Positions 39,881 through 64,000 of a stretch of 64,000 nucleotides of DNA are shown piece by piece. Both the position numbers and the translations under genes were made by a program. Under the pieces are notes generated by a model. The model saw only the letters and a list, made by a program, of their open reading frames with translations. It made no database searches and was not told the DNA's origin. How positions within the stretch are numbered: the stretch's first letter is position 1; each line of letters opens with the position of its first letter. Source of the DNA: Clitopilus passeckerianus (lineage: Eukaryota > Basidiomycota > Agaricomycetes > Agaricales > Entolomataceae). Location of the stretch: assembly GCA_944990035.1 (NCBI GenBank), contig CALYLX010000144.1, positions 186,001 through 250,000 on the forward strand. Reading direction: 5' to 3'.

Positions 39881-39959
39881 TGCCGTCGGCGTTGCCCTCC
39901 TCCACGTCTCTATCCTCGTTGTCGTTGGCGTTCTCGACGAGCTCGACTTTGTTTTCGGT

Positions 39960-41527: not shown

Positions 41528-42304
41528 CATGCTCGCTGGCTTCGCTTTCATTCTTTCCTTCTGGGTCTCTTGTGGTGAGTCGGATGTCCAATTCCTCTGC
41601 TTCCATCCCCTTTGGCCGCGTACGAGTTGTTTCTACCTGATGTTTTGACATTTGACATCGGTCATTCGTTTTCTCCACAATTGCCATTTGCCATTTACCC
41701 TCTTTTGCGTCATTACTCTATCTTTATTTACCTACGTTTACACCTTCTCGCCGCACTATTGCAATATGTTAGATTACCACCAGCCCATCCTATTATATAT
41801 GTTCTATCTCTGTATCCATACTTCTAGTTTCTTTCGCCTGCCCGCAGTCGGCCATCACCTGCGATGGCATCTCGACTTGTGGAAGATTGCTATGGAAACT
41901 TTTACGCACGCCTCATTCCCATCCCATTACTTTACACAAACCGCTTGGTTCACTTGCTACCTATCAATTCTTCGCTCTTCCCATGCTTCGCCCTCCCTCG
42001 TCATCGTGATTTTAGACCACAATGCTGACCCGCTTTTTGATTGTCTTCTAGAATTTTCTCTTCTGCAAACTCTCACACTCTCTTCGCATCGTCTCCAACT
42101 CTGCTTTCCGTTGTACCCATTACCATGGCACTGTCCCCACTTGCCGAGCAAATTCACCTGGCGCATTGAAGGCCCACGTCGTCAACCTCTACCCGTTGCA
42201 GCGTAACGCCAGTTAGGCAGCGAGTCGCCGTCGGCCTCTATCTCGCCTATTCCGCTTCATGAGCCCCATGACTGACTCGGGCTAATACCGCGTCTATTCC
42301 AAAC
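41528..42304 (+). other. 3' flank of the G-alpha gene, no gene identified
   Basis: AT-rich, pyrimidine-rich sequence that looks like a 3' UTR and flank. The plus-strand ORF 41652-42206 has no recognisable domain. Confidence 0.45.
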
Positions 42305-42863
42305 GGCGACATGCAGAACATCATCAGACCTTTTGGCCTGCAACACCTCATCTATACTTCGGCGGTGGCTGCACATCCCCAAGTACAATATCACCCCTCC
42401 GCCTGCATTGTAGTATGCAGATTTTTGCCATGATCTTCGTCAGGAGCACCTCATTTTTGCCGGCCAGTCGCTGGAGGGTGGTTATAGGCTTTCTAGCCAT
42501 GCCTCATCTTCACTGGCAAGCAACTCGAGGACGGTTGTGATCACCAGCTAGCGCCTCATCTTTGCTGGCAAGCAACTCGAGGACGGCTGCACACTCCCCA
42601 CTACAAGATCATCACGAATGCCTCATCTTTGCTGGCAAGCAACTCGAGGACGGCCGCGCGCACCTTTGACTACAACATCACCCCGCCACCTGCATCACGG
42701 TAACCGTATGCAGATTTTCGTCAAGACCTTTCACAACAAGCAGCGTCTCATCTTTGCTAGCAAGCAGCTTGATGACGGCTTCGTACTGAATGTATTGGTC
42801 ACTTACGTCGACCTTCGCCTCCACAACGGCATGCAGATCTTCATCAAGGTCTTTTCTGACTGA
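42305..42863 (+). repeat. Right array of degenerate, internally deleted ubiquitin units
   Basis: Six or more tandem units in the same orientation as the left array. CTTTGCTGGCAAGCAACTCG (ubiquitin FAGKQL region) recurs near 42554 and 42625 with variants elsewhere. The best unit (from about 42709) reads MQIFVKTF-HN-KQRLIFASKQLDDG, then DLRLHNG directly before a new MQIF, which matches the LRLRGG|MQIF junction of polyubiquitin. The jump from the start segment to the KQRLIF segment is the same deletion as in the left array. Confidence 0.78.
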
Positions 42864-43069
42864 CTACCACCTCATTGCGGTGCATACCATTCTCTCACCC
42901 TATGATATAATGACCTATTCAATTAGATTCCATTGATACTCTTATTCTATCCACCTTTGCTTGTCTTTTATAATACCTATCAATTCTTACCTTCTACTGA
43001 GCATGCTACCGTATACCTTCACGTCTACATACTTGTTGCTTGATGTCTTCTAATGCTATAAGCTTCAAT

Positions 43070-43370
43070 TCTTGTGGCTTGTTGACTTCCCTTGCGTGTG
43101 CTTGAAGGTGTGCTTAAAGTGAGCTTGGCAGGGCCTTGAATCTGGCTCTTGGCCTTGCTTTAGTTGGCTTAGAATACTTGAGGGTTGATTGTGGGGATAT
43201 GTGCTCAAGCTGTGCTCAAGTAGAAAATCAAGCGCTCAATCAAGTTTGTCTGATTGATGGGCTTCTTGAGCTCAGATTGATTGACTTGACGACAGCTTGA
43301 CAGATTTCTCAAGCTGGTCTCAAGCTGCTAATTCTCAAGCATACTCAAGCGGCATGACTTTTTGCTGATG
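43070..43370 (+). repeat. Right subterminal repeats and terminal inverted repeat of the Plavaka-like element
   Basis: Ends with TGACTTTTTGCTGATG, the exact complement of the left end. It holds six TCAAGC and two GCTTGA motifs in about 300 bp. TT follows at 43371-43372, as TT precedes the left end. Confidence 0.8.
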
Positions 43371-43531
43371 TTACGAAAGAACTCCAAACTATTATGCCTG
43401 GCATGTGACGAATAACCCGAATTCAAGACAATTACTTTCCATACCGAGTTAATTACAACACTTCTACGAAGGACCCTGCATAGCTAGGTGGTTAAGCGAA
43501 AGGCGTCAGAATGAATGTGTTGACGGTCCCA

Positions 43532-44790
43532 TCACCCCACCGACCCCACTTCTGCGCATAACAAGGACAGAACTACAGTGCGCAACATCTGCCTCATCCG
43601 CTCTGCAACCAGCTCCTTGACACCCGTTGGCCGTATCCGTATTACCTCCAGCTCCCATCCTTCAAAGACCCGTCCCTGGAGGTCGTTCCAAAACTCCTCT
43701 TGCCAACGCTCCTTCTCCTCAAGCGTGGAACGATCACGGATATCCAGAGCTCGGCCGACGAATGGTTCATTATCTTTGTGACCTCAGAAAGGGAAGCTCG
43801 GAACCGCGATCCGTATATCAAGCTCTCGTAGGTGGGGGAGATGATCGACTAAAATATCAAAATGGCGAGGCGTGAGGGTCAGCAGGTTGAGCCTCAGTGT
43901 ATGTAGTACGACGTTGTGGTATGAAGTAGGTGGTGGCTCTCGACGGGAAGGGAATACGAGCAAGATTTCCTTGAGGTAGGAGAAGTGTAAAGGAAAAGTG
44001 TCGTTGATGATCAATGATGTCAATCTTTCTGTTGATTGGAGGACGTAGGCTTGGACGTTTTGTATCGCCAGAACAGGGTCAATTCGAAGCCCAGACATCT
44101 CAAGGCTCTCTAACGCGGACATTGTTGGGGGTGCGAAACCAGTGAAAGGGGTACCGACAACGTTTATGTAGCTTCTCGGCCGAAGAGTGTGCGTCGATAT
44201 CCGTAGATGTGTGATCTGGCTCTTGTAGGCGTTCAGAAAGTTGATTGTACCCTGATAATCCAATAGGGCGCTAGGTGCAGTCGTAACAGAGAAGTGGGTT
44301 AGATTTGGAAGTGAGTTCTCCGTGGAGGAAAGGGTGTACATCATGGCATCAAAGAAGCGTTGCTGTGTACGCGATGCCATAAACTCGAAAGAGAGTTGTT
44401 TGGGGCCGGCGTTGATAAGTTCTCCCCCGTGACGTTCGAATAAAGGAGGGCACGGTGCAGGCATGCTAACAAACTCAAGAAGCAAGCGCATGGTGTTATA
44501 GGCCCCGAGAAGGGGGCGAATGATGGGAGGGCGGTATATACCGTAGTCGAGGATCCTCAGGTGCAAACTCTTCAGACAGTGTATGGCCGCGTGGTTTGAC
44601 GGGCATATAGGGATGAGTCTGTCGATGTCGTCAGGGATAAAGCTAAGGACGAGGTGCCGCATGGTCATGGTTTTAGCGTTCTGGATTTGAAGCTTCCATA
44701 GCGAGGAGGCCAGCGAGAAACAGAGGGGACTGTTGAGTCCCGCGTCACAAATGACCAGTGATCGCAGAGTCGGTCATGTTTTTACCGGGA
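43532..44790 (-). pseudogene. F-box / leucine-rich-like protein, C-terminal part with a nonsense codon
   Basis: Homologous to the genes at 9744-14725 and most similar to the split gene at 62595-63819/54035-54491. It is readable from SLVICDAGLNSPLCFSLASS (about 44760) through LTHFSVTTAPS and LRELDIRIAVPSFPF to a charged C-terminal helix (WQEEFWNDLQGRVFEGWE) and a stop at 43532. After SFPF the frame hits TGA (43784-43786), where the relative at 54211 has an Arg codon in FPFRGHGD; downstream homology continues in the same frame. This is a simple CGA-to-TGA type change. No F-box start is recognisable upstream, so the gene also looks 5'-truncated. Confidence 0.75.
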
Positions 44791-45353
44791 GCACGCATGG
44801 GAGGTATTTCTAAGGAATCCTCTAGAGACTTCTATAAATGTTGCCGGAGAGAAGGTTGGAGAGTAGGAGGAGCATTCGAAGAAGAGGCCCAGAAACTCTG
44901 GTTGTTGATGCTTGGACCGCGGTTTCGGAGATTTCCGGCCCTCGTCAGGATTGGATGTGGCTATGCTTGGCGATTAGATTAGATCCTAGGTTTGAGATCT
45001 GAGAATTGAGGCGTTTCCGCGTGTGTTGGAAGTGGGACAGTAGGGAAAATTTGTTGGGCATGCAAGGCTTAGAGCAGTATCCCATCGGCTGCGCGTGAGG
45101 CTTGGAAAACCAAAGGACGTAAGACCCCGAAAGGATCCGCAGTACCGAGGGTTTGAAGTTGGTGAAGCCTTGTACTTCCAAAGGTGTACTGTATCGAGGG
45201 CGACGATTGAGAGAAGCAAGTTCTACGATTCGAAGCATATAGCAAAGGTACAGGACTCCCAGATCAGTATTGGTAACAAAATTTATCAGAACGTTCGCGA
45301 ACAATGTTATTGCCCACTTCAGCGCGATAAAGGGGGGATAACGGCACCTATCC
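44791..45353. other. No gene identified
   Basis: Sequence between two F-box pseudogene pieces. ORFs of 75-140 codons exist on both strands without recognisable domains; it may be decayed F-box gene sequence. Confidence 0.4.
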
Positions 45354-45960
45354 TTAATGCTTCTGGTTCCCATCCTTCGAACACCTGTGCATGAAACTCA
45401 TCTCAGAATGGCTCTTCCCAGAGCTGCTTCTCGTCCAGCGTGCAACCATCCCGGATCTCCGGGGTATTATTATTTGCGGCTCGTGATCTCCAGAGCTTCG
45501 GAAGAGAAAGGTTCGCCTGAAGATGCGCGGATTGAGCCCTTGTAGATGTCGTAGATGATTAAACATGAGGTCGGGATAACGAGGCGTGAGTAACAGGAAG
45601 CAAAGGGTCAGAAAGCGGAAGGTAACGTTGTGAGGCGGGAAAGGAGGGGGTGTATCACGGGGTGAAGGAAACACCCATAACATTTGCTTCAGCCCACGAA
45701 GTGCATAGGACCGGTATCGTTGGTGGTCGGCGAGATAAGCCTTTCCGTCGACTGAACAACATAGTCGTGTAATGATGTTACGTCTCGGACTCAGATGAGA
45801 TGGGTGGAACTGCTCGCTCGAGACCTCCAGATTCTCCAGCGCAAGCAACGTTGGAGGCCAGCCACGCGACTCCGATCACTGTGCATTGAAGGGTGATGCG
45901 AAATACAGATATGTGAGAGTCGGTTCTTGTTGTCTGGGGCCATATCTGACGTACAGACAC
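45354..45960 (-). pseudogene. Degenerate F-box / leucine-rich-like gene fragment
   Basis: The frame 45848-45354 carries segments matching the family: MLALENLEVSS, LKQMLWVFPSPRDTPPP, LTPRYPDLMFNHLRHLQGLN and RRTFLFRSSGDHEP. These align with LVFPSRREPPP, LTPRHFDILVDHLPHLREL and the FPFRGHGD region of paralogues. The N-terminal F-box and most repeats are missing and the alignment shifts frame. Confidence 0.65.
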
Positions 45961-46169
45961 GTCAGGCTGGATGCGAGGTCCCGATGGGAAATTTGGTGTG
46001 TGGCTGGGGTAGATCGATTAGATTAGATCGGATTAGAGTGTTGGCTGCTCGTCGTTCTGCCTGGAAAGTTGAGATATGCACCAAATTCGCGCATTGGAAC
46101 CACAACTAATACTGCCCAAAAACAATGAAGGTAACAATACAGTTATCAAAATACCATTGAACGGACCGC

Positions 46170-47071
46170 CTATCTGTCACTATTGTCAATAAATGTGCTA
46201 AAAGGTGGAATAGCCTTAATCGCCCTCTCAGTCGTCTCTCCAAGGCGTTTGTAAAAACCTGATGAGCGCGTCTTTTCGCATTCGCTACCCTCTCTGAGGC
46301 AGTCCTTCAACTCCCAAAGCGAGCGAGGACCCTCCAGAAGTTTCTTGGTGATAGTCTGAGTGTGATTCGAAAACGGAAGCCCGCATGGACACATGCAGGC
46401 AGTAGGACCGCGACAATGCCCTGGCCCACGCAATTCAAGCCCATGGTCGCTCAGAGCCTTCAGATTTTGTGCTCAAATGTCTTGCCAATTTGAAAAGTAG
46501 CGAGCCTAGATCGAGAATATGTCAGATAAAACTCGGAGATCTAACGAGGCAACTTCGAAACCGACCCATGACCAACGAAGTGGGGGAGGGAGGTGTGTAT
46601 CCATATGGTCAAACGTCAAGTGGAGGACCATATGCGCAGAGGCATCCAGAATATCATAGTACCCGGACCGTGCGGCGTACATAAAGATATTCTCGGCATG
46701 AGCGGGGAGGCTGTTCCTAGATTCTAGCCGTTAGAAAGCACTCGGGTATTCATTTTCAATCGACGTACTTCATGAATATCTTGCACATCTGCATTGCCTG
46801 ATATACAGAGTACTTCTCGGCCGCCAGCGCAAGCTCTTCAAGCTGGACGAAATCTAGTGCGCCAACATCAAGGCATCGGGTTGGTTGGAGGAATTGTAGA
46901 AGGCGACGCATTGTAATAGATTTCTCTGGAACTCGCACCCGATTGTCGAAAGAACCTTCAGCCATTTTAGGCGCAAAAGCTGTCAGCGTGGCAATATCCG
47001 CCCAAAGCTCGATTTTGTCGCCACATTCAATGCAAAGGTCTTTTGACAACGCGGTAGTGGTAGGGATGCTG
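46170..47071 (-). pseudogene. Tandem-BTB gene 2, second half, separated from its first half by B1
   Basis: Minus-strand second BTB module (IELWADIATLTAFAP, RRLLQFLQPTRC, LALAAEKYSVYQAMQMCKIF), a 52-nt intron (46717-46768), then AARSGYYDILDASAHMV and LPPPLRWSW, and a C-terminal region with MCPCGLPF and AIKAIPPFSTF. The order and splice positions match the gene at 4196-5836. The 5' side is cut by B1 at 47077. The missing first half is at 54663-55606 on the other strand, and undoing the B1/B2 inversion brings both together. Across the rejoined site the frame is off by one base, so there is one further small lesion or sequence error near it. Confidence 0.8.
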
Positions 47072-47076
47072 ACTAG

Positions 47077-47536
47077 TGTTACAGTTACCTTGGATACGCA
47101 CCCGGACTCTTTTTCCTTTTACTCATCTACCATTACTATCCCCGCCCCGCTTACGTTTATACATTTACTCAGTACTGCTGCGCATTACTCATCCCTTTAG
47201 CTATGATTACTCAGTATTCTCACGATCGTGGGATACTTGTACTATATTTACTTACCATGACTCGTCGTGACTCTTACTCTGACTCACTCCGAGTCATACT
47301 TACTTTTGCTTACTTAGCATTGCTGCGCAATGCCCAACCCTTAGCCCTACTCTTCATGTATAAATACTTTCACGCTTTCGGTCTTGCTTCCCCAGCTTGA
47401 CCTAAAAGCCTATACATCGCTATTTGCTTTAACCGACTCGCTCGATTACTCTCGCTCGTCTCTACAAAGGCTGGTAGAGGACTAAGCAGCTGAACTCTTG
47501 ATACTTGGTTGAGCACGTAGCGATACTAGCTTAACA
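47077..47536 (+). repeat. B1 5' LTR with predicted promoter
   Basis: 460 bp, TGTTA...TAACA. TATAAATA at 47359-47366, predicted RNA start CAGCTTGACCT at 47393-47403 (34 nt from the box start), and the CACGATCGTG palindrome in U3. Confidence 0.95.
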
Positions 47537-47537
47537 A

Positions 47538-47548
47538 AGGTCAAGCTG
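47538..47548 (+). promoter_or_regulatory. Self-priming primer binding site, family B
   Basis: AGGTCAAGCTG, starting two bases after the LTR end, is perfectly complementary to CAGCTTGACCT at 47393-47403. It is the same 11-mer pair as in family A although the rest of the LTRs has diverged. B2 has the site at 62120-62130. Confidence 0.85.
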
Positions 47549-48011
47549 ATCTGATAGCCCGCTCATCGCAAGCGTAGGCCACAACCACCAAACCACCTGA
47601 CTGCAAGAGGTCAACTACCCTTGCAGAACCGACGGAACCACGTCTCCCTCAAGACCGCCGAACGCCTCAACTCCCACCGGGACAGAGAGAGTAGTACAAC
47701 TTGACGACGGTACTTACTCAGAATTCGACCTTAAGACAAACCGTTGGAGACATTTGGTACCGAAAGACGAAGACCCGCGACAATATCGATTTGGCGACTA
47801 CCTTAGCAGTGCCTACTTCACCGAAGAAGTAAAGAACCCAGAACCAGAACCACAGCCAGACCCCGAACCAGAATCAGAACCAGAGCAAGAACCCGAAGAA
47901 GAATCGGAAACAGAGCAAGAACCCGAAGAAGAATCGGAAACAGAACCAGAACCCCCCAGACAGACCCAGACTCCGACACCCGCACAAACCCCGAAACAAG
48001 AACCACCAGAA

Positions 48012-48896
48012 ATGGCTCCAACCAACCCTGAACCAAAGAAACTCGCCGAACTCCGAATGGGACAACCATTTGAATATGATGGTGACCGAAGAAATGCCGA
48101 AGTTTGGTTGTTGGAAGTCAAGATGTACCTAAGCCTGAACGACCACATCTACGACAACAACAACAAGCAAATCGCTTTTGCACTTTCCTTTTTGAAGAAA
48201 GGAACCGCTTTGGCATGGAAACGATCTTTCTGCCAGAACTACACAAACAAAGATAACGACATCATCCTCCCCGATTTCAAACAATTCGAGAAAGAATTCA
48301 TCAACGCCTTCTACCCAGTAGACGGAGAAGGACAGGCATTTGCATCCCTAGACGCTCTCACGCAGAAAGGACCAATTGACGATTACATATCTCAATTCAA
48401 AGTCCTTATCTCCGCCTCCGGGATCACCGATGAAAAGGCGAAGATTGAATTCTTCCAGAAAGGACTCAACTCCAAGATCATCGAAAAGATCTATAACCTC
48501 CCCATTCTTCCCGTCACCATTAACGGATGGTACGAACACGCTGCCCGATTTGATGCACAATGGCGTAGAGGACAGAACGACATCCGCCGCAACAGAGGAC
48601 TCCCCCCTATTTCCCATGCAAATCCCCGCAATACCCACGCCACAGCAGACCCTAACGCCATGGACATTGACGCCTTATCTTTTGAAAAGAGAAAAGAGTT
48701 AATGAAGGAAGGGAAATGTTTCCGCTGTTTCAAGAAAGGACATCGCTCTCGAGAATGCCCTGAACGCAGAGGAGGAAAGCAGTCCAACACCAACTCCTAT
48801 GGCAAGAAAAACATCAAAGATCTTGTCAGAACCATTAGAGCGTTGGAAGCGGAAGAATTGGAGAGCTTCTGGAATGAGCTCGATGAGGATTTTTAG
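48012..48896 (+). CDS. B1 gag: capsid/nucleocapsid protein
   Basis: ATG 48012 (MAPTNPEPKKLAELRMG) is the first AUG after the predicted RNA start at 47393. The capsid-like region includes VWLLEVKMYLSLND, ALSFLKKGTALAWKRSF and KIEFFQKGLNSKIIEK; the nucleocapsid has one CCHC knuckle (CFRCFKKGHRSREC). 294 codons, frame intact. Upstream the same frame is open back to about 47600 and encodes a Pro-Glu repeat region (47845-47960), yet it contains no AUG. The gag end reads GAT TTT TAG, and the pol frame (-1) is open across it. Confidence 0.88.
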   Translation: MAPTNPEPKKLAELRMGQPFEYDGDRRNAEVWLLEVKMYLSLNDHIYDNNNKQIAFALSFLKKGTALAWKRSFCQNYTNKDNDIILPDFKQFEKEFINAFYPVDGEGQAFASLDALTQKGPIDDYISQFKVLISASGITDEKAKIEFFQKGLNSKIIEKIYNLPILPVTINGWYEHAARFDAQWRRGQNDIRRNRGLPPISHANPRNTHATADPNAMDIDALSFEKRKELMKEGKCFRCFKKGHRSRECPERRGGKQSNTNSYGKKNIKDLVRTIRALEAEELESFWNELDEDF

Positions 48897-48946
48897 AACG
48901 GCGGCCAGTGTCAACGTCTGAACCCGCCACAATACTGATTTCTTCT

Positions 48947-51900
48947 ATGTCGTATGCAGAACCTTTTGATAAATCTATGTGTCTACCCATTAAGGTCTCT
49001 GCTCCGAATGAAGAAAGAACCGTTGAAACCAAAGCACTAGTCGACTCAGGTGCTCAAGGACTATTCATCGACAAAGAATTCGTCGCCCGCCATCGAATCA
49101 AAACACATCCCCCGACAACCTCTCACTGCCAAGAATGTTGACGGCACTATCAACAAAACAGGGCAAATCACCCATTACACCTGGGTCGATATAGGGATAG
49201 GGAAACACAAGGCGTCAGAACGGTGCCTGGTCACGGGATTAGGGAATGAACACCTGATCCTCGGACTCCCATGGCTGAAGCGAACGAATCCAGAAATCAA
49301 CTGGCAAAGGGGACACTATTCATTAATCCAAAGCGCGTCAAGACATCCCGCTACGCACGGCCCTTGCCCGAGTCCAGATCAGACGACTAGCCGCAACAGA
49401 GGAATCACGCCCAGACATTTCCAACGTACCCGACGAACCCGAACCCATTGAAACACCCTTAGAAGAACCCAATGACGAACAAGACCTGGTTATTGCCTAT
49501 GTGAAAGGAGAACCAGTGATGGGGATATTCGAACGAGCCAATTCCCCATTGACGAATGAACATCGAGAACCAGAAATCAGAAGAATCCGAGCCGCAAATA
49601 TCTCCCGAATCACCCGAGATAGAGGATCACTGCGATTCGTCCCGACCCAGAACGTCTGGATTCGCGCCAAGACGTCCATCTCCCAGACCTTAGAACATCA
49701 GAAAACCGAAGAGGTCAAGAAGAAACTCGAAGACCTCATTCCCCGAATACCACGAATTCAAGAAAGTCTTTGAGAAAGAAGCATCAGAACGATTCCCCCC
49801 ATCTCGGCCTTGGGATCACGCCATTGATCTCAAACCAGACTTTGTCCCGAAAGACTGCAAGGTCTACCCTCTCAATCCAAAGGAGCAAGCCGAAATGGAC
49901 AAATTTCTCGAAGAAAACTTACGAAAAGGATACATCCGACCCTCGAAATCACCTCAAGCATCACCCTTCTTCTTTGTAGCAAAGAAAGAAGCAAACGCAC
50001 TACGACCCTGCCAAGATTACCGATATCTCAACAGTGGAACTGTCAAGAATGCCTACCCTTACCACTAGTCAGCGACCTACTCGACAAACTCAGAGGAGCA
50101 AAGATTTTCACAAAGCTGGACATCCGATGGGGATATCATAATGTCCGGATCAAAGAAGGAGACGAGTGGAAAGCAGCCTTCAAAACAAATCGAGGCTTGT
50201 TTGAACCCACCGTCATGTTCTTTGGACTATGCAACTCCCAGCCACGTTTCAAGCAATGATGAACCACATCTTCAGAGACATGATCGATGAAGGATGGTTA
50301 ATCATCTACATGGATGACATGTTACTCTTCTCTAAAGACCCAAGAGAACATGAGAAGCGCACCAAACGGGTACTCCAAAGGCTGATGGAACACAACCTGT
50401 TCCTCAAAGCTGAGAAATGCAAATTCAACGTAACAGAAGTCGAATTCCTTGGAATGATCATATCGCCAGACAAGATCCACATGGACCCGACTAAACTCGA
50501 CGGGATAAAGAAATGGCCAACCCCGACCACCGTAAAAGAAGTTCGGTCCTTTTTGGGATTTGGCAACTTCTACCGAAGGTTCATAGGGAAATATGCGGAA
50601 CTAGCCCGACCCCTGAACGATCTCACCAAGAAAGATCGGCCCTTTACATGGGGAAAGGAACAAGAAGAAGCATTTGAAGCCCTGAAGAAAAGGTTCGCGG
50701 AGACACCCGTACTCACGATGCCCGATCCAACAAAACCATTCACCATTGAATGTGATGCATCCAAGTGGGCGACAGGAGCAGTACTACGCCAACGAGACGA
50801 AAATAACGACTGGCACCCTTGTGGATACATCTCTCACTCCTTCACCCCAACCGAACGGAACTACGAAATCTACGACAGGGAACTACTCGCTATAGTCAGA
50901 GCACTGGAGACTTGGCGACACTATCTACAAGGATCAGCCCACCCTGTCACAGTATTCTCCGACCATAAGAACCTGACCTACTACCGAACGCCACAGAAAC
51001 TTAGCCGACGACAAGCACGATGGAGTTTACTCCTCTCAATATGACCTAAACCTAGTCCATGTACCAGGAACTCAGATGGTCCAATCTGACGAACTATCCC
51101 GACGAGCAGATCACATTCTAGACCACGACACTGACAACGAAGACATCACCATGCTACCTGATAAACTTTTCATCCGAACAATTGACACCGAACTTAAGGC
51201 GGAATTTGCCGAACACATGATGAAAGACGAATTCTTCACGGAAGCAATACGACACCTGAAGAACCACTCTACCCCCATCAAATCGGCTTTAGCCGACTGG
51301 AAAGTAGAGGACTCTCTCCTCTTTTTCCGGGCGATGCTACGTCCTAATGATGCTACCCTCGACGAAGCCTCATACAGAAGTATCATGACGCACCTATGGC
51401 CGGACACCCCGGAGCATTCAAGACGATGGAGTTAATTTCCGAACACTACTGGTGGCCCAGAATGTTTGGAACTGTCAAATCCTACGTTGATGGATGTGCC
51501 CTTGCCAACAGATGAAGGTCAATACACACCCCACGGCACCTCCCTGAACCCAGTCAAATTTACCGCCACACGACCCTTCGAACTTGCCTCTACAGATTTC
51601 ATCACTGATCTTCCTGAGGTTAACGGTTACGACTCACTCATGGTCGTGGTAGACCATGGCCTTAGTAAGGGGTAATTTTGATCCCTTGCAAGAAGACCAT
51701 TGACGCCTAGGCACTGCCAACAACTACCTGGACGCTGTCTACAGAAGATTTGGACTTCCCGACAAACTGATATCCGATAGAGGTCCACAATTCGCATCCA
51801 AAGTATTCCAAGAACTAGGACGACTCCTAGGAATCAAGCTTTCCTGACAACCGCATATCACCCACAAGCAGATGGAGAAACCGAACGCGTCAACCAAGAC

Positions 51901-52618
51901 ATTGGCGCTTATCTCCGACTATTCTGCGCCAACAACCCCGAGAAATGGCTAGAACTAATTCCCTAATGGAATTCGCCCATAACAAACGTGTTCATGCCGT
52001 CACCGCACAAACTCCATTCTACCTAATGAACGGAGCAGAACCACGCGCTATTCCCTTCCATATCAGAAGACCAATGTCCCTGCTGCGGAAACCCGAATGA
52101 AAGAACTCCAACAAGCACGAGACGAAGCTGCGGCTGCCCATGAACTTGCGAGACGAAAGATGGCTGAACGTGTCCGAAGTAACTTCAAACCATTTGAACA
52201 AGGACAGAAGGTTTGGTTGGAAACAACTAACCTAAAACTGGCATACTACTCAAAGTTCACGCCACGACGAGAAGGCCCCTTCACGATCAAAGAAGTTCTA
52301 GGTCCGCTGACCTACAGATTAGAACTACCCCGAGCATGGAAAATTCACCCTGTGTTCCACGCCACCCTCCTCACACCATACAAGGAAACCGAGACACATG
52401 GGCCCAATTTCCTAGAACTGCCACCTGACCTCATCAATCAAGAAGAAGAATGGGAAGTGGAAGAAATTGTCGCACACAAACGACATCGTGGGAAGATCCT
52501 TTACAAGATCAAGTGGAAAGGATATCCGACATCGGAGAACTCATGGGAACCTGTGAGAAACCTCCAGAACGCCAAGAAGACCCTTGAAGCATATAAGAAG
52601 AGGAAGAACATTCGGTGA
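48947..52618 (+). pseudogene. B1 pol: protease, RT, RNase H, integrase, chromodomain (many frame breaks as assembled)
   Basis: Protease (ALVDSGAQGLFID), reverse transcriptase ([12 protein letters not shown]), RNase H ([13 protein letters not shown]), integrase ([21 protein letters not shown]) and chromodomain (LYKIKWKGYPTSENSWEP) are all recognisable but lie in several frames. Compared with B2, losses of one base occur in C-runs near 49113, 50058, 50239, 51500, 51840, 51962 and 52056, plus a few other small gaps. The clustering in homopolymers points to consensus error or slippage more than to random decay. Confidence 0.88.
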
Positions 52619-52668
52619 ATCTCCATCAACCCACAGCACTTCGCCGAAGCAAACACATCTTGCTTATA

Positions 52669-53541
52669 ATGTCCTCCAATGTCTCTTCCTACGACCGCAC
52701 CATCATCCTTAACACCTTCAAAACCGATTCCGCTGTTACGGCGCTCCGTACGAACACTGCCTGGAGCAACAACGACAACCTCCTCACCGAAGTGGCAGAG
52801 CGGGGCTCAGCCTACCACGACCGAAGAACCGAATTCCGCAACGAAGTGGCTCGTCTACGCCACCTATATTCGAAAACCCTTGAAGAACTTGATCGAGCTC
52901 TTGACAGCTCTGACCAACGCACGGAGGAAACCCTCACCGACCTCTTCTTCGCTGCCGGAGGTACAGCCTTCCTTGATCAGCACTATCCTGAACGACGAAG
53001 TTGGTTCCCCAACCCGAAGGAGACAGATTTCGAAACCCTTGCCGCCAATCCCTGGGGGCCTGAGGAAGATCAAACCACCGAAGAACCGACGATTCTCACG
53101 GCACGTCAGGTTCGAGGAACCCTCAAGAATTCCCCGTCACCAACCTTGCTACCGCCAAGATAAAGCACAATCCCTTCATTCAAACTACACCCGAGGATCA
53201 AGATAGCGACAAGGAAAACGTCAACCCAAATGTCAAACCCACCGACACCTTACCTCTCCGCATTCGAAAGCCCACCAGAGTCAGATTCGCCAACTCTGGT
53301 GAACCCTCTTCCTCAACGATCTCGTCAGAAGGCGCCGCGTACCGGATACCTTGCCAACCAGCCACCACCGCCCAGACACTTCCGATGCTATGTTTGCGGA
53401 GGCAGACATCGACAATACCATTGCTTTCGTTTTGTTTGTCGTCTGTGTCATCATCGCGGCCCAGGCCATTACCCGGTTAACTGTCCACAACGCTATTGGA
53501 AGAACATAGACCGCCATTTCTGGGGCAAGAAGAAGAATTGA
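52669..53541 (+). pseudogene. ORF3 of B1, family B homologue of the zinc-knuckle-like protein
   Basis: ATG 52669 (MSSNVSSYDRTII), 50 nt after the pol stop. It matches family A ORF3 over most positions of the N-terminal region (TEETLTDLFFAAGGTAFLD, ETDFETLAANPWGPEE), the KEN motif (DKENVNPN) and the C-terminal Cys/His region (CYVCGGRHRQYHC, CRLCHHRGPGHYPVNC). Two small gaps relative to B2 (a C-run near 53130 and a CA pair near 53327) break the frame. The extra Cys249 of family A is Tyr here, which supports the two CCHC assignments. Confidence 0.82.
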
Positions 53542-53574
53542 AGTCAGGTGACTTCAACGCTAGCGAGAGGGTAA
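53538..53574 (+). promoter_or_regulatory. Stop-codon hairpin and polypurine tract of B1
   Basis: TTGAAGTC (53538-53545), loop AGGT, GACTTCAA (53550-53557); the ORF3 stop TGA (53539-53541) lies in the left arm. GCGAGAGGGTAA follows and abuts the 3' LTR at 53575. Confidence 0.8.
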
Positions 53575-54034
53575 TGTTACAGTTACCTTGGATACGCACC
53601 CGGACTCTTTTTCTTTTACTCATCTACCATTACTATCCCGCCCCGCTTACGTTTATACATTTACTCAGTACTGCTGCGCATTACTCATCCCTTTAGCTAT
53701 GATTACTCAGTATTCTCACGATCGTGGGATACTTGTACTATATTTACTTACCATGACTCGTCGTGACTCTTACTCTGACTCACTCCGAGTCATACTTACT
53801 TTTGCTTACTTAGCATTGCTGCGCAATGCCCAACCCTTAGCCCTACTCTTCATGTATAAATACTTTCACGCTTTCGGTCTTGCTTCCCCAGCTTGACCTA
53901 AAAGCCTATACATCGCTATTTGCTTTAACTTCGACTCGCTCGATTACTCTCGCTCGTCTCTACAAAGGCTGGTAGAGGACTAAGCAGCTGAACTCTTGAT
54001 ACTTGGTTGAGCACGTAGCGATACTAGCTTAACA
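53575..54034 (+). repeat. B1 3' LTR
   Basis: 460 bp. It differs from the 5' LTR by small gaps in runs (for example ATCCCGCC against ATCCCCGCC) and has TTAACTTCGAC where the 5' LTR has TTAACCGAC. Confidence 0.95.
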
Positions 54035-54491
54035 GTTCCCTTCAAGTCAAGACTCGCTACACGCTTCATCTCATAACGTCAGGCTCTGTACCGTAACACT
54101 CCACCTCCTCACCCTCACGCCTCAGCATTTTGACTACCTCTTCGACCACCTCCCTTATCTGGAAGAACTCAATCTACGAATCTTTTTACCGAACTTCCCA
54201 TTCCGTGGTCACGGGGACGCTGAGCCATCCCTACTTTCATTAGAGATCAAGGAAGATCTCACCCATCAGCAAAAGCAACTTTCGCAGGAAAGGTTTTTCG
54301 ACGAGTTGCAGACACAGGTTTTCTATGGCATGGAGTTGGGAGTGGTTAGGGTTGGTGTGGCTGGCGTTGAGGAACACATATGCGAGCGAATGAGGCAGGC
54401 ACTACACGTTGCGGTCCCTTCATTGTTACGTGCTGAAGTCAGTAATGGAATCGTTAGCTCGGATTCTGAGGCATTTCGTCTACCATACTGA
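54035..54491 (+). pseudogene. F-box gene 3, C-terminal part, on the inverted segment
   Basis: Starts right at the B1 LTR with FPSSQDSLHASSHNV, then LTPQHFDYLFDHLPYLEELNLRI, FPFRGHGDAEP and the C-terminal helix, stop at 54489-54491. The missing N-terminal part is at 62595-63819 on the minus strand. With the segment turned over and B2 plus one TSD removed, the join is in frame (VLNVFPSSQDS) and matches the paralogue motif LLVFPSRRE. Confidence 0.85.
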
Positions 54492-54662
54492 CCGTTACTA
54501 CGTATCCCTTGTATTCTCCTTACGCCTCATACGCCAGCTGATATCTGGATCTGGGAACAAATTGAACTTGATGCGGATACTACCATAATCAAGGCTCGTG
54601 CGTCAGGATACGTCGTGCATGCCACGAGGCAGTCGTCAACACACTTTCACCTCGACCACATC

Positions 54663-55606
54663 ATGCGGCAAATGGACTCAACGGGTTCCACCTCGGAGAC
54701 AGACCAAAGCTCAACTGAGTCTCAAGCAAAATACTCGGATGAGTGTACGTCGATTCATGAATCTCAGCAATAGAACTGTACTCATCGTCCACGATCGTTT
54801 GTTTCAGTCAACGCCGAGAATGCAGAAGTCGTTTACGAGTCGTCTGATGGGATTCGATTCAGGATCCATGTCGCTTATCTCAGAGCTCATACGGAGGGCA
54901 TGGCTCCACTTCCTGGATCCACATTTGAAGAGGTCGTACCATTACTCGAGCCAGCATCGGTGTTGGCGCTTCTTTTCAAGTTCATATACCCTAGGCGCCA
55001 ACCAGATCTTGAATCACTGGAATTTGATGTTCTACAGAATCTTGCTGAGGCGAGCGAGAAGTATCAGGTGTATCCGGCCATGTACGCTTCATACTTGCGG
55101 ATGCGGTGAGTAAAGATGTTCGAATCAGGTTTCCAATCTAAGGCTGCTCTACGCCAGCGGCACTCTTCCCAACCACGCCATCCAAATACTCAGTTATGCT
55201 CTGAAGCACGACTACAGCGTTCTCATCAACGAAGCCGCTCCATTGGTGCTTGACGTGAAGGCCTGGGATGTCCTTAAAGCAATTCCAGCTGATCGTCAGG
55301 AGGTGTGGGTTCGTCATTCTCAATTCTTTCTCCTGAACCAGAGTTTAGACGTTTCTAGTTGGAATACCATCATAAATGGCAGGAAGTGCATACACGTGCC
55401 CTGACTACACACCTCACAACCTCAAGGCCGAGCCTGGACCCCAGCCTAGTATCAGGCGTTTCCGGCAGCCTAATCGCACTCTATCGGTTAGATGAAACTT
55501 TTGGAGATCGAGCTATTAGCTGGAAATCATTGATTGCTGCTGATATCACCCGCATTCCCCAGCTTTCTGAACTAGTCACTAGGTCTAGGGGCTCGGTCTC
55601 ACTAGT
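54663..55606 (+). pseudogene. Tandem-BTB gene 2, first half, on the inverted segment
   Basis: Exons about 54663-54744, 54808-55105, 55143-55308 and 55359-55606 (introns 63, 37 and 50 nt). A Ser/Thr-rich N-terminus is followed by the first BTB module: VVYESSDGIRFRIHVAYLRA, LLEPASVLALLFKFIYPRRQ, LAEASEKYQVYPAMYASYLR. Then come LSYALKHDYSVLINEAAPLV and a linker resembling 4627-4850 of gene 1 (SWKSLIAADITRIPQLSELV against TTWQDYITSEAEDLPTLNEL). It is cut at 55606 by B2; the second half is 46170-47071. Confidence 0.82.
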
Positions 55607-56068
55607 TGTTAAGCTAGTATCGCTACGTGCTCAACCAAGTATCAAGAGTTCAGCTGCTTAGTCCTCTACCAGCCTTTGTAGAGACGAGCGAGAGTAATCG
55701 AGCGAGTCGAAGTTAAAGCAAATAGCGATGTATAGGCTTTTAGGTCAAGCTGGGGAAGCAAGACCGAAAGCGTGAAAGTATTTATACATGAAGAGTAGGG
55801 CTAAGGGTTGGGCATTGCGCAGCAATGCTAAGTAAGCAAAAGTAAGTATGACTCGGAGTGAGTCAGAGTAAGAGTCACGACGAGTCATGGTAAGTAAATA
55901 TAGTACAAGTATCCCACGATCGTGAGAATACTGAGTAATCATAGCTAAAGGGATGAGTAATGCGCAGCAGTACTGAGTAAATGTATAAACGTAAGCGGGG
56001 CGGGGATAGTAATGGTAGATGAGTAAAAGGAAAAAGAGTCCGGGTGCGTATCCAAGGTAACTGTAACA
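55607..56068 (-). repeat. B2 3' LTR
   Basis: 462 bp, TGTTA...TAACA, followed in element sense by the host BTB sequence. Confidence 0.95.
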
Positions 56069-56101
56069 TTACCCTCTCGCTAGCGTTGAAGTCACCTGAC
56101 T

Positions 56102-56976
56102 TCAATTCTTCTTCTTGCCCCAGAAATGGCGGTCTATGTTCTTCCAATAGCGTTGTGGACAGTTAACCGGGTAATGGCCTGGGCCGCGATGATGACACAG
56201 ACGACAAACAAAACGAAAGCAATGGTATTGTCGATGTCTGCCTCCGCAAACATAGCATCGGAAGTGTCTGGGCGGTGGTGGCTGGTTGGCAAGGTATCCG
56301 GTACGCGGCGCCTTCTGTGACGAGATCGTTGAGGAAGAGGGTTCACCAGAGTTGGCGAATCTGACTCTGGTGGGCTTTCGAATGCGGAGAGGTAAGGTGT
56401 CGGTGGGTTTGACATTTGGGTTGACGTTTTCCTTGTCGCTATCTTGATCCTCGGGTGTAGTTTGAATGAAGGGATTGTGCTTTATCTTGGCGGCGGTAGC
56501 AAGGTTGGTGACGGGGGAATTCTTGGAGGTTCCTCGAACCTGACGTGCCGTGAGAATCGTCGGTTCTTCGGTGGTTTGATCTTCCTCAGGCCCCCAGGGA
56601 TTGGCGGCAAGGGTTTGAAATCTGTCTCCTTCGGGTTGGGAACCAACCGTCGTTCAGGATAGTGCTGATCAAGGAAGGCTGTACCTCCGGCAGCGAAGAA
56701 GAGGTCGGTGAGGGTTTCCTCCGTGCGTTGGTCAGAGCTGTCAAGAGCTCGATCAAGTTCTTCAAGGGTTTTCGAATATAGGTGGCGTAGACGAGCCACT
56801 TCGTTGCGGAATTCGGTTCTTCGGTCGTGGTAGGCTGAGCCCCGCTCTGCCACTTCGGTGAGGAGGTTGTCGTTGTTGCTCCAGGCAGTGTTCGTACGGA
56901 GCGCCGTAACAGCGGAATCGGTTTTGAAGGTGTTAAGGATGATGGTGCGGTCGTAGGAAGAGACATTGGAGGACAT
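56102..56976 (-). pseudogene. ORF3 of B2
   Basis: ATG 56976, stop inside the conserved hairpin (56102-56104). The N-terminal region is intact to about 56645, where small losses (GGGAACCAACCG against the longer B1 form) shift the frame. The Cys/His motifs are present near 56250-56150. Where B1 lacks CA near 53327, B2 keeps it, so the two copies are broken at different places. Confidence 0.8.
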
Positions 56977-57026
56977 TATAAGCAAGATGTGTTTGCTTCG
57001 GCGAAGTGCTGTGGGTTGATGGAGAT

Positions 57027-60000
57027 TCACCGAATGTTCTTCCTCTTCTTATATGCTTCAAGGGTCTTCTTGGCGTTCTGGAGGTTTCTCACAGGTTCCC
57101 ATGAGTTCTCCGATGTCGGATATCCTTTCCACTTGATCTTGTAAAGGATCTTCCCACGATGTCGTTTGTGTGCGACAATTTCTTCCACTTCCCATTCTTC
57201 TTCTTGATTGATGAGGTCAGGTGGCAGTTCTAGGAAATTGGGCCCATGTGTCTCGGTTTCCTTGTATGGTGTGAGGAGGGTGGCGTGGAACACAGGGTGA
57301 ATTTTCCATGCTCGGGGTAGTTCTAATCTGTAGGTCAGCGGACCTAGAACTTCTTTGATCGTGAAGGGGCCTTCTCGTCGTGGCGTGAACTTCTTTGAGT
57401 AGTATGCCAGTTTTAGGTTAGTTGTTTCCAACCAAACCTTCTGTCCTTGTTCAAATGGTTTGAAGTTACTTCGGACACGTTCAGCCATCTTTCGTCTCGC
57501 AAGTTCATGGGCAGCCGCAGCTTCGTCTCGTGCTTGTTGGAGTTCTTTCATTCGGGTTTCCGCAGCAGGGACATTGGTCTTCTGATATGGAAGGGGAATA
57601 GCGCGTGGTTCTGCTCCGTTCATTAGGTAGAATGGAGTTTGTGCGGTGACGGCATGAACACGTTTGTTATGGGCGAATTCCATTAGGGGAATTAGTTCTA
57701 GCCATTTCTCGGGGTTGTTGGCGCAGAATAGTCGGAGATAAGCGCCAATGTCTTGGTTGACGCGTTCGGTTTCTCCATCTGCTTGTGGGTGATATGCGGT
57801 TGTCAGGGAAAGCTTGATTCCTAGGAGTCGTCCTAGTTCTTGGAATACTTTGGATGCGAATTGTGGACCTCTATCGGATATCAGTTTGTCGGGAAGTCCA
57901 AATCTTCTGTAGACAGCGTCCAGGTAGTTGTTGGCAGTGCCTAGGGCGTCAATGGTCTTCTTGCAAGGGATCAAAATTACCCCCTTACTAAGGCCATGGT
58001 CTACCACGACCATGAGTGAGTCGTAACCGTTAACCTCAGGAAGATCAGTGATGAAATCTGTAGAGGCAAGTTCGAAGGGTCGTGTGGCGGTAAATTTGAC
58101 TGGGTTCAGGGGAGGTGCCGTGGGGTGTGTATTGACCTTCATCTGTTGGCAAGGGGCACATCCATCAACGTAGGATTTGACAGTTCCAAACATTCTGGGC
58201 CACCAGTAGTGTTCGGAAATTAACTCCATCGTCTTGAATGCTCCGGGGTGTCCGGCCATAGGTGCGTCATGATACTTCTGTATGAGGCTTCGTCGTAGGG
58301 TAGCATCATTAGGGACGTAGCATCGCCCCCGGAAAAAGAGGAGAGAGTCCTCTACTTTCCAGTCGGCTAAAGCCGATTTGATGGGGGTAGAGTGGTTCTT
58401 CAGGTGTCGTATTGCTTCCGTGAAGAATTCGTCTTTCATCATGTGTTCGGCAAATTCCGCCTTAAGTTCGGTGTCAATTGTTCGGATGAAAAGTTTATCA
58501 GGTAGCATGGTGATGTCTTCGTTGTCAGTGTCGTGGTCTAGAATGTGATCTGCTCGTCGGGATAGTTCGTCAGATTGGACCATCTGAGTTCCTGGTACAT
58601 GGACTAGGTTTAGGTCATATTGGGAGAGGAGTAAACTCCATCGTGCTTGTCGTCGGCTAAGTTTCTGTGGCGTTCGGTAGTAGGTCAGGTTCTTATGGTC
58701 GGAGAATACTGTGACAGGGTGGGCTGATCCTTGTAGATAGTGTCGCCAAGTCTCCAGTGCTCTGACTATAGCGAGTAGTTCCCTGTCGTAGATTTCGTAG
58801 TTCCGTTCGGTTGGGGTGAAGGAGTGAGAGATGTATCCACAAGGGTGCCAGTCGTTATTTTCGTCTCGTTGGCGTAGTACTGCTCCTGTCGCCCACTTGG
58901 ATGCATCACATTCAATGGTGAATGGTTTTGTTGGATCGGGCATCGTGAGTACGGGTGTCTCCGCGAACCTTTTCTTCAGGGCTTCAAATGCTTCTTCTTG
59001 TTCCTTTCCCCATGTAAAGGGCCGATCTTTCTTGGTGAGATCGTTCAGGGTCGGGCTAGTTCCGCATATTTCCTATGAACCTTCGGTAGAAGTTGCCAAA
59101 TCCCAAAAAGGACCGAACTTCTTTACGGTGGTCGGGGTTGGCCATTTCTTTATCCCGTCGAGTTTAGTCGGGTCCATGTGGATCTTGTCTGGCGATATGA
59201 TCATTCCAAGGAATTCGACTTCTGTTACGTTGAATTTGCATTTCTCAGCTTTGAGGAACAGGTTGTGTTCCATCAGCCTTTGGAGTACCCGTTTGGTGCG
59301 CTTCTCATGTTCTCTTGGGTCTTTAGAGAAGAGTAACATGTCATCCATGTAGATGATTAACCATCCTTCATCGATCATGTCTCTGAAGATGTGGTTCATC
59401 ATTGCTTGAAACGTGGCTGGGGAGTTGCATAGTCCAAAGAACATGACGGTGGGTTCAAACAAGCCTCGATTTGTTTTGAAGGCTGCTTTCCACTCGTCTC
59501 CTTCTTTGATCCGGACATTATGATATCCCCATCGGATGTCCAGCTTTGTGAAAATCTTTGCTCCTCTGAGTTTGTCGAGTAGGTCGCTGACTAGTGGTAA
59601 GGGGTAGGCATTCTTGACAGTTCCACTGTTGAGATATCGGTAATCTTGGCAGGGTCGTAGTGCGTTTGCTTCTTTCTTTGCTACAAAGAAGAAGGGTGAT
59701 GCTTGAGGTGATTTCGAGGGTCGGATGTATCCTTTTCGTAAGTTTTCTTCGAGAAATTTGTCCATTTCGGCTTGCTCCTTTGGATTGAGAGGGTAGACCT
59801 TGCAGTCTTTCGGGACAAAGTCTGGTTTGAGATCAATGGCGTGATCCCAAGGCCGAGATGGGGGGAATCGTTCTGATGCTTCTTTCTCAAAGACTTTCTT
59901 GAATTCGTGGTATTCGGGGGGAATGAGGTCTTCGAGTTTCTTCTTGACCTCTTCGGTTTTCTGATGTTCTAAGGTCTGGGAGATGGACGTCTTGGCGCGA

Positions 60001-60719
60001 ATCCAGACGTTCTGGGTCGGGACGAATCGCAGTGATCCTCTATCTCGGGTGATTCGGGAGATATTTGCGGCTCGGATTCTTCTGATTTCTGGTTCTCGAT
60101 GTTCATTCGTCAATGGGGAATTGGCTCGTTCGAATATCCCCATCACTGGTTCTCCTTTCACATAGGCAATAACCAGGTCTTGTTCGTCATTGGGTTCTTC
60201 TAAGGGTGTTTCAATGGGTTCGGGTTCGTCGGGTACGTTGGAAATGTCTGGGCGTGATTCCTCTGTTGCGGCTAGTCGTCTGATCTGGACTCGGGCAAGG
60301 GCCGTGCGTAGCGGGGATGTCTTGACGCGCTTTGGATTAATGAATAGTGTCCCCTTTTGCCAGTTGATTTCTGGATTCGTTCGCTTCAGCCATGGGAGTC
60401 CGAGGATCAGGTGTTCATTCCCTAATCCCGTGACCAGGCACCGTTCTGACGCCTTGTGTTTCCCTATCCCTATATCGACCCAGGTGTAATGGGTGATTTG
60501 CCCTGTTTTGTTGATAGTGCCGTCAACATTCTTGGCAGTGAGAGGTTGTCGAAGGGGATGTGTTTTGATTCGATGGCGGGCGACGAATTCTTTGTCGATG
60601 AATAGTCCTTGAGCACCTGAGTCGACTAGTGCTTTGGTTTCAACGGTTCTTTCTTCATTCGGAGCAGAGACCTTAATGGGTAGACACATAGATTTATCAA
60701 AAGGTTCTGCATACGACAT
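57027..60719 (-). pseudogene. B2 pol: protease, RT, RNase H, integrase, chromodomain (nearly intact)
   Basis: ATG 60719 (MSYAEPFDKSM). Protease to the end of the reverse transcriptase is open to about 59130, and RNase H to chromodomain is open over 638 codons (58943-57027). Only a short interval (59130-58950) is broken, by one missing A (TAAAG against TAAAAG in B1) and one missing C. Motifs: [88 protein letters not shown] and LYKIKWKGYPTSENSWEP. Probably a recently active copy. Confidence 0.9.
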
Positions 60720-60769
60720 AGAAGAAATCAGTATTGTGGCGGGTTCAGACGTTGACACTGGCCGCCGTT

Positions 60770-61655
60770 CTAAAAATCCTCATCGAGCTCATTCCAGAAG
60801 CTCTCCAATTCTTCCGCTTCCAACGCTCTAATGGTTCTGACAAGATCTTTGATGTTTTTCTTGCCATAGGAGTTGGTGTTGGACTGCTTTCCTCCTCTGC
60901 GTTCAGGGCATTCTCGAGAGCGATGTCCTTTCTTGAAACAGCGGAAACATTTCCCTTCCTTCATTAACTCTTTTCTCTTTTCAAAAGATAAGGCGTCAAT
61001 GTCCATGGCGTTAGGGTCTGCTGTGGCGTGGGTATTGCGGGGATTTGCATGGGAAATAGGGGGGAGTCCTCTGTTGCGGCGGATGTCGTTCTGTCCTCTA
61101 CGCCATTGTGCATCAAATCGGGCAGCGTGTTCGTACCATCCGTTAATGGTGACGGGAAGAATGGGGAGGTTATAGATCTTTTCGATGATCTTGGAGTTGA
61201 GTCCTTTCTGGAAGAATTCAATCTTCGCCTTTTCATCGGTGATCCCGGAGGCGGAGATAAGGACTTTGAATTGAGATATGTAATCGTCAATTGGTCCTTT
61301 CTGCGTGAGAGCGTCTAGGGATGCAAATGCCTGTCCTTCTCCGTCTACTGGGTAGAAGGCGTTGATGAATTCTTTCTCGAATTGTTTGAAATCGGGGAGG
61401 ATGATGTCGTTATCTTTGTTTGTGTAGTTCTGGCAGAAAGATCGTTTCCATGCCAAAGCGGTTCCTTTCTTCAAAAAAGGAAAGTGCAAAAGCGATTTGC
61501 TTGTTGTTGTTGTCGTAGATGTGGTCGTTCAGGCTTAGGTACATCTTGACTTCCAACAACCAAACTTCGGCATTTCTTCGGTCACCATCATATTCAAATG
61601 GTTGTCCCATTCGGAGTTCGGCGAGTTTCTTTGGTTCAGGGTTGGTTGGAGCCAT
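60770..61655 (-). pseudogene. B2 gag, one frame break as assembled
   Basis: ATG 61655 (MAPTNPEP), CCHC knuckle CFRCFKKGHRSREC near the end. An extra A in a run (six against five) near 61475 splits the frame; the B1 copy is intact there. The upstream PE-repeat extension (about 61820-61700) is open and AUG-free as in B1. Confidence 0.87.
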
Positions 61656-62132
61656 TTCTGGTGGTTCTTGTTTCGGGGTTTGTGCGGGTGTCGGAGTCTG
61701 GGTCTGTCTGGGGGGTTCTGGTTCTGTTTCCGATTCTTCTTCGGGTTCTTGCTCTGTTTCCGATTCTTCTTCGGGTTCTTGCTCTGGTTCTGATTCTGGT
61801 TCGGGGTCTGGCTGTGGTTCTGGTTCTGGGTTCTTTACTTCTTCGGTGAAGTAGGCACTGCTAAGGTAGTCGCCAAATCGATATTGTCGCGGGTCTTCGT
61901 CTTTCGGTACCAAATGTCTCCAACGGTTTGTCTTAAGGTCGAATTCTGAGTAAGTACCGTCGTCAAGTTGTACTACTCTCTCTGTCCCGGTGGGAGTTGA
62001 GGCGTTCGGCGGTCTTGAGGGAGACGTGGTTCCGGTCGGTTCTGCAAGGGTAGTTGACCTCTTGCAGTCAGGTGGTTTGGTGGTTGTGGCCTACGCTTGC
62101 GATGAGCGGGCTATCAGATCAGCTTGACCTTT

Positions 62133-62594
62133 TGTTAAGCTAGTATCGCTACGTGCTCAACCAAGTATCAAGAGTTCAGCTGCTTAGTCCTCTACCAGCC
62201 TTTGTAGAGACGAGCGAGAGTAATCGAGCGAGTCGAAGTTAAAGCAAATAGCGATGTATAGGCTTTTAGGTCAAGCTGGGGAAGCAAGACCGAAAGCGTG
62301 AAAGTATTTATACATGAAGAGTAGGGCTAAGGGTTGGGCATTGCGCAGCAATGCTAAGTAAGCAAAAGTAAGTATGACTCGGAGTGAGTCAGAGTAAGAG
62401 TCACGACGAGTCATGGTAAGTAAATATAGTACAAGTATCCCACGATCGTGAGAATACTGAGTAATCATAGCTAAAGGGATGAGTAATGCGCAGCAGTACT
62501 GAGTAAATGTATAAACGTAAGCGGGGCGGGGATAGTAATGGTAGATGAGTAAAAGGAAAAAGAGTCCGGGTGCGTATCCAAGGTAACTGTAACA
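62133..62594 (-). repeat. B2 5' LTR
   Basis: 462 bp. In element sense it has TATAAATA and the CAGCTTGACCT start (complement of 62268-62278); the self-priming site follows at 62120-62130. GGAAC follows at 62595-62599. Confidence 0.95.
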
Positions 62595-63819
62595 GGAACA
62601 CATTCAAGACTTGCCCCATCCAATAAAAGTTCAGAGGATAGTCATTAATAGTCAATGACTTGAACCTCTTCGTCGATTGAAGAACATAGGCTTGGACAGT
62701 ATTTGCAATGTTTGGCTGAAACTTTGCCCCCTCTATTTCCAGATGCTGAAGTGCTGACATTTTTGGAGGAAGAGCGGCCCGCCGAGAGTGAGCCGTTATC
62801 CGAAGATGCGTAATCTTATCTTTGTGATGCTTCAAAAACTCGAAAGCGGGTTCATGCCAAGGTATGGAGTACGGCAGGGTCGAGAGAGAGAAGTGCGTCA
62901 TGTTTGGAAGCGAGTTCACGAGCGAAAAGAGGCGCTGAAATATGGTTTTGAAAACCCAATGTTGCCACCGAACCGCGCGAAAACGGATGTGGAGCAATTT
63001 TAGGCGAGGCTTAAGATCATCTCCCAGGCGACTTTCAGCAGGGAAAGGGAGAGCTGCTGGCGAGGCGATGAGATTGAGGAAGGTGTGTAGGGCTTCCAGG
63101 CCGTCCGCACTATAATGGCTACTGCGGTGAATGATGAGATTCAAACTTTCCAGATGAGGCAACGGCGAGTGGTTTGAAGGACTTGTGGGAAGCAAATGAT
63201 CGAGGTCATCAGGACGAACGTCCAGGGTTAGGTGTCGAATGACCACCATCTCAGGATTCTGGGTTTGGAGCCTCCATATATTGGACACGAGCGAGAAACA
63301 GAGAGGGTTGCCGTGGCCCACATCGCAGACGACCAGCGACCGCAGGTTTGGGAGGTTTAAGATGAGTTCGTGAGACAATTGGTGGATTGTATGTGCAGAT
63401 CGAAGGTTGGGGCTGAGGTACTCCCCTAGCTTCTGAGAAACGGCGTGGGCGATTCGAAGAGGAGTCCCACTCTTGGATAATTGAATAGTCGCATCGTACG
63501 GGCAGGTATACTGCGAGTTGATCTCCAGGACCATAATTCTCTCGAGGATATATGGTTGCCTAGAAGCAGATCAGAAATGAAGTACATTTAGAATAGGTGC
63601 CGTATATGCGACGTACGTCAAGTGCTGAAGCTGCATAACCGTCTCTTTAAAAGTATGGGTCTCATTGCGGAACAGCCTGACGTAGCGGTATTTCGCATCC
63701 AGAGCAACCGCCAAAAACACTCTGTTCACCATCCATAACTGTGCGACGGTTTCATCTGGAAGGTAAGAGGCAACGCTCAGCCATAACTCATTCGGGAGAG
63801 TTACATTATGAGCGTCCAT
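62595..63819 (-). pseudogene. F-box gene 3, N-terminal part, cut by B2
   Basis: Exon 1 (63819-63617) starts MDAHNVTLPNELWLSVASYL, an F-box. A 57-nt intron (63560-63616) leads to exon 2 (63559-62595) with leucine-rich segments (LRSLVVCDVGHGNPLCFSL, LTHFSL-type NMTHFSLSTLPYS, ITHLRITAHS). Exon 2 ends at B2 in VLNVF. The C-terminal part is on the inverted segment (54035-54491). The open frame extends 28 codons upstream of the chosen ATG. Confidence 0.85.
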
Positions 63820-64000
63820 GAATGAAAGGGCAAGCTTAAACGAGACAGTTAGGCAGAGTGAGAGGAACCAAGCATTGGTCCAAATACCTGAGGCCGTCGT
63901 CACCTTATGAAGGAGGGCTCGGCTAAACGTGGTTGCGTGGCATGCACAGCCAAAGCAGGCAGGTCGATCTGATTGGTGGCCACTGAGATTAACATGGATA
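63820..64000. other. 5' flank of F-box gene 3
   Basis: Right edge of the window; no further feature recognised. Confidence 0.5.

Follow-up and report, generated by a model that had tools for sequence, protein, structure and literature searches.

The stretch of Clitopilus passeckerianus DNA analysed here, called the window, is C141:186001-250000 (64,000 nucleotides), and the surrounding assembly has 64.8 Mb in 160 contigs. Within it, two opposite-facing copies of one long terminal repeat (LTR) retrotransposon, B1 and B2, stand at both ends of an inverted middle segment of ~1.57 kb (54035-55606). Orientation and junctions were read here only from assembled contigs. B1 occupies 47077-54034 on the + strand (6958 bp, LTR of ~460 bp) and B2 occupies 55607-62594 on the − strand (6988 bp, LTR of 462 bp). 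Both start with TGTTACAG and finish with CTTAACA, and the LTRs of their family have TG...CA ends with a 5-bp target duplication. When pieces of B2 were searched separately, they matched models of gag, protease, reverse transcriptase, RNase H, integrase, and chromodomain, in that order. Ty3/Gypsy chromoviruses have gag, then protease, reverse transcriptase, RNase H and integrase, then a chromodomain, and B2 fits this class by its predicted domain order, B1 being of the same family. With at most one mismatch tolerated, 40 places match the junction of the 5′ LTR with the inner part, and 63 match that of the inner part with the 3′ LTR. B1 is not counted among the 40, because it has a deletion at that spot.

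Pieces of two host genes lie next to the elements. The N-terminal part of an F-box-like gene (62595-63819, − strand) ends with ...QVLNVF at the B2 junction, and its C-terminal part, starting with PSSQDS (54035-54491, + strand), is now separated from it by B2 and the inverted segment. The first part of a second gene, called a tandem-BTB gene in the sequence-only reading of this stretch, lies at 54774-55601 (+ strand), where the B2 junction interrupts an exon, and the continuation of the cut exon lies left of B1 (46756-47071, − strand). The F-box label corresponds to a sub-threshold Pfam match only (F-box-like, 21.1 bits with a cutoff of 24.3), and for BTB the gene pieces tried gave no match to Pfam or to solved structures.

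The 5-bp target duplications are reciprocally exchanged between the two elements. In their own orientations, B1 reads ACTAG-TG...CA-GTTCC and B2 reads GTTCC-TG...CA-ACTAG. On the + strand, the outer copy of site 1 is ACTAG at 47072-47076, and its inner copy is the reverse complement CTAGT at 55602-55606. The inner copy of site 2 is GTTCC at 54035-54039, and its outer copy is the reverse complement GGAAC at 62595-62599. The coordinates and flanking 5-mers given in the sequence-only reading are correct to the base.

A homologous stretch in the same genome, C79:336878-340922, is without insertion at both sites. In window coordinates, its order is the reverse complement of 62596-64000, then 54035-55601 forward, then the reverse complement of 46000-47068. 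Therefore, when the window is compared with C79, the segment is turned around with respect to the flank on either side; its counterpart, C79:338279-339834, is 87% identical and opposite in orientation relative to the flanks. GTTCC is present once on C79, within the uninterrupted GTGTTCCCTTTAAG, and site 1 has no insert there, the target itself being diverged. It had been proposed that turning over 54035-55606 restores two normal duplications, and the unflipped order deduced in this way is the order that C79 displays. Because only the C79 order yields two normal insertions, the duplications alone set the direction of change.

Both genes are continuous on C79. The F-box-like frame is open across one junction (L012 2-766), reading ...QVLNVFPLSQDSL..., and the exon of the second gene is open across the other (L012 1593-2195), reading ...LSELVTRSRAPVSSIDTPTAVTLSKD..., with its first part and continuation in one frame. 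In a paralogue just right of the window (C141:252994-253551, 51% identity), the second gene's exon is also continuous through the same point. Thus, the in-frame joining of the F-box gene and the rejoining of the halves of the other gene, both predicted earlier, are borne out by the C79 frames. The inversion had also been said to split the two genes; it did rearrange their pieces, but the breakage was already due to the insertions. All four signals formerly counted as independent come from just two junctions, and are therefore not four independent ones.

The relation of the window to C79 extends further. Window 43370-47068, 62595-64000, and pieces of the next 20 kb match C79 344585-320626 in reverse with ~72-98% identity, and from this synteny C79 and C141 are taken to be two nuclear haplotypes or a duplicated region. 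The divergence is patchy, with identity of 74 to 94% from 43370 up to the elements, 98% at 62879-64000, and 88% just right of the window. Window 2874-13225 and an element block at 19969-34404 share their direction with C79 348102-369232, and 43370-64000 runs in the opposite direction except for segment 54035-55601; the opposed directions of 2874-13225 and 43370-64000 would represent a larger rearrangement between C141 and C79. Window 34450-43360 matches best not C79 but C66:1523820-1540251 (98%, in three pieces).

Flanks were also scored in 38 other copies or arrays of the family, drawn from sequence matches as a set neither random nor complete. Target duplications match in 23 and differ in 12, and three are not scorable. 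Because 23 of the 35 scorable ones match, family copies appear to be often assembled through correctly. When B1, B2 and the 12 differing ones, 14 in all, were compared with one another, five cross-matches of 5 bp occurred in 182 ordered comparisons, where 0.18 was expected. Chance pairing is thereby ruled out. All five cross-matches join opposite-facing neighbours on one contig, two of them being B1/B2. That the assembler made two insertions out of one is likewise ruled out, as each site has its own duplication and both sites are empty on C79.

Two more cross-matches come from a second fully exchanged inverted pair, C146:606873-613842(+) and C146:619575-626555(−), with 5732 bp between. C152 joins the C146 left flank straight to the far end of the segment, so one junction is found empty and unflipped; for the other C146 junction, the C152 stretch examined gave no counterpart.

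The fifth cross-match is in C118, where C118a (192508-206710) and C118b (207630-215945) have the duplication exchanged at one junction only. C82 reads AAGCGAAAGG-CCGTC-GAACCTG, which is this junction without an insert and in unflipped order. A variant LTR start, TGTTACAATTACC, is common to both C118 LTRs beside CCGTC and lacking in the other two C118 LTRs. It occurs in no other of the 63 listed junctions of the inner part with the 3′ LTR, and among 147 loci, many of which contain no LTR start, just two have it, those with these C118 LTRs. Hence the LTR partners in C118 appear exchanged, as expected of a crossover.

Two insertions, exchanged duplications, and the opposite segment orientation in an insert-free homologue are thus observed at B1/B2. 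We infer that the flip is real in the DNA rather than in the assembly only, and that it was caused by crossover between the inserted copies, an explanation that we favour with modest confidence. Two copies of one Ty3-type chromodomain retrotransposon would have landed, facing opposite ways, at sites separated by 1.57 kb, with one host gene disrupted and one 5-bp target duplication made at each site. The two copies would then act as inverted repeats, and a crossover between them would turn over the intervening piece. The inner target duplications would thereby change places, and what is left of the genes would come to lie in scrambled orientation. In support, the reciprocal exchange at B1/B2 is seen again at the C146 pair, and insert-free homologues are present for both B1/B2 junctions (C79), one C146 junction (C152), and one C118 junction (C82).

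Crossover between inverted copies is already a known process, of which B1/B2, so understood, is one further instance. Exchanged target duplications between opposite copies are described as a mark of ectopic recombination in the part of a study of the transposon Galileo used here (PMC2775673). Together with the C79 order, this upholds the earlier proposal of homologous recombination between inverted repeats. As in the Galileo inversion 2z3 of Drosophila buzzatii, opposite copies stand at both breakpoints, duplications are exchanged, and the uninverted chromosome has single targets (PMC2775673). Unlike 2z3, the present case involves an LTR retrotransposon and a 1.57-kb segment. The Galileo copies are moreover chimeric (PMC2775673), and B1 and B2 are too alike to tell. 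In another mushroom, Marasmius oreades, close copies, some of them head-to-head, are likewise present, and structural variants are ascribed to inter-copy recombination (PMC9674265). There, however, the variants are deletions and one copy inversion with its middle deleted at head-to-tail hAT copies, and exchanged duplications are not among the features noted in the portion of that paper covered here (PMC9674265).

Several observations count against crossover. Eight of the 12 differing copies have no partner in the set, as would follow from further recombination, deletion or misjoins. The other C118 junction is unpaired (CTTGG versus TTCCC) and its outer flank differs from C82, so something further would seem to have happened at that end. 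C118a (~14.2 kb) and C118b (~8.3 kb) each hold extra sequence, and since they are longer than a plain copy, each was treated as one element with extra sequence inside. On C43, a copy near 122k whose opposite-facing neighbour lies at a distance of 4.3 kb is flanked by a matching duplication of its own. At C59:435786-450434, opposite copies 710 bp apart have duplications that match in no combination. Short deletions private to B1 are numerous and fall mainly in homopolymers, a sign of reads not uniquely placed. No B1/B2 substitution is usable, and therefore a chimeric join would be invisible and the crossover cannot be mapped as an internal mosaic. Finally, an assembler flip would yield identical duplications and the same LTR partner exchange.

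The last point leads to the strongest alternative, in which the insertions are real and the DNA is unflipped, and the assembler entered the segment from the wrong end between identical inverted copies. Sequence differences among copies bear on it. Over 4.1 kb, B1/B2, the C146 pair, and 11 other copies, taken from the best matches of the family search, were compared. B1 and B2 have no substitution and 19 insertion or deletion (indel) events, and the C146 pair has one substitution and 17 indel events. Any two of the 11 other copies are separated by 12 or more substitutions (median 26), and the median number of indels is one; 33 of their 55 pairs have 0-1 indels, one outlier copy having 16-19. 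Private changes in the B1/B2 and C146 pairs are mostly deletions in one member of each. Over whole elements, six substitutions are called between B1 and B2; four of these adjoin a gap, and the other two fall within a C-rich run and may be an insertion plus a deletion. In the C146 pair six are also called, three of them clustered, with 0 or 1 between LTRs. C146:606873-613842, like B1, has numerous short private deletions that fall chiefly in homopolymers, a pattern that sets both apart from most other copies compared.

The excess indels are read as probable local consensus errors where reads could not be placed; the copies would therefore be truly alike, but the assembler least sure there. Both fully exchanged pairs being near substitution-free and indel-rich, with most private deletions held by one member, counts for a wrong-end entry, and the eight of 35 other copies with unexplained flanks also favour it. 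The assembler caution voiced in the sequence-only reading accordingly stands, as B1 and B2 show these signs of poor consensus. On the other hand, the 23 of 35 copies with matching duplications suggest that reads were long enough to span one copy, and repeats left unresolved would usually end a contig. The C118 pair is also distinguishable (six substitutions, no gaps in the 1101 bp compared) and not reciprocally exchanged, unlike a simple flip, and this slightly favours biology over assembly error. Recurrence by itself cannot separate crossover from assembler error, because both would presumably flip about half of susceptible pairs. The eight unexplained unmatched copies and the composite C118 members shift a small weight from crossover to the assembler flip, which we regard as a serious but rather unlikely account.

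A one-step origin is less probable still. Two sister complementary DNAs (cDNAs) would integrate in one joint event, both of them bridging site 1 and site 2 with their two ends, and the inversion and the two target duplications would be products of this integration. The fully exchanged pairs are near-identical, every other pair compared over 4.1 kb being at least 12 substitutions apart, and the C146 copies are roughly as close to each other as their LTRs are, on very few changes. In hybrid-element insertion of DNA transposons, identical opposite copies flank an inversion with exchanged duplications, and copies that are identical rather than chimeric are its mark, chimeric ones telling of ectopic recombination, according to the part of the Galileo study used here (PMC2775673). 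Unlike an LTR element, which would need two cDNAs, that process uses the ends of two inserted transposon copies.

Identical copies would equally result from gene conversion between nearby inverted elements. The C59 pair shows the same likeness across 1 kb (0 substitutions, 12 gap columns in 1013) yet lacks a matching duplication, and C118 is better suited to crossover. No LTR-element case of joint integration stood out in the literature searched, mostly at listing level. For aberrant proviruses, rearrangements are credited to host enzymes that insert one end, in most cases with no short repeat of the normal kind, in the part of the source drawn on (PMC5041404). That B1/B2 has this origin is thus improbable, and there is similarly a small chance that inversions were born with their insertions at least two times in this genome (B1/B2 and C146) by joint integration of sister cDNAs. 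In a close variant, such segments might switch orientation repeatedly between nuclei of the culture. It is very unlikely that the C79 stretch is a rearranged paralogue and the window order the older one. Nearby blocks do differ in order (34450-43360 and 2874-13225, above), but two normal duplications and two open frames are obtained with the C79 order only.

Other arrangements of the family were encountered. C26:356133-363595 consists of LTR(−), LTR(+), inner part (+), and LTR(−) with a matching outer duplication, CATAT, and may be an element whose inner part was turned round, as self-integration would do. Two direct tandem arrays apparently share LTRs; the outer duplication matches at C110:201310-214833 and does not at C82:549162-569192. 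C125:92281-99270 is a copy inside an LTR of its own family, with a non-matching far flank.

B1/B2, with its uninterrupted counterpart in this assembly, cleanly illustrates how a young retrotransposon family can break genes as well as reorder their pieces. The same family has one other pair that is fully exchanged and one that is half exchanged, and this recurrence allows the frequency of flips, or of assembly errors, to be counted in one genome. If it is true that the identity within pairs reflects joint cDNA integration, this would be an inversion route for LTR elements not found described in the portion of the literature searched.

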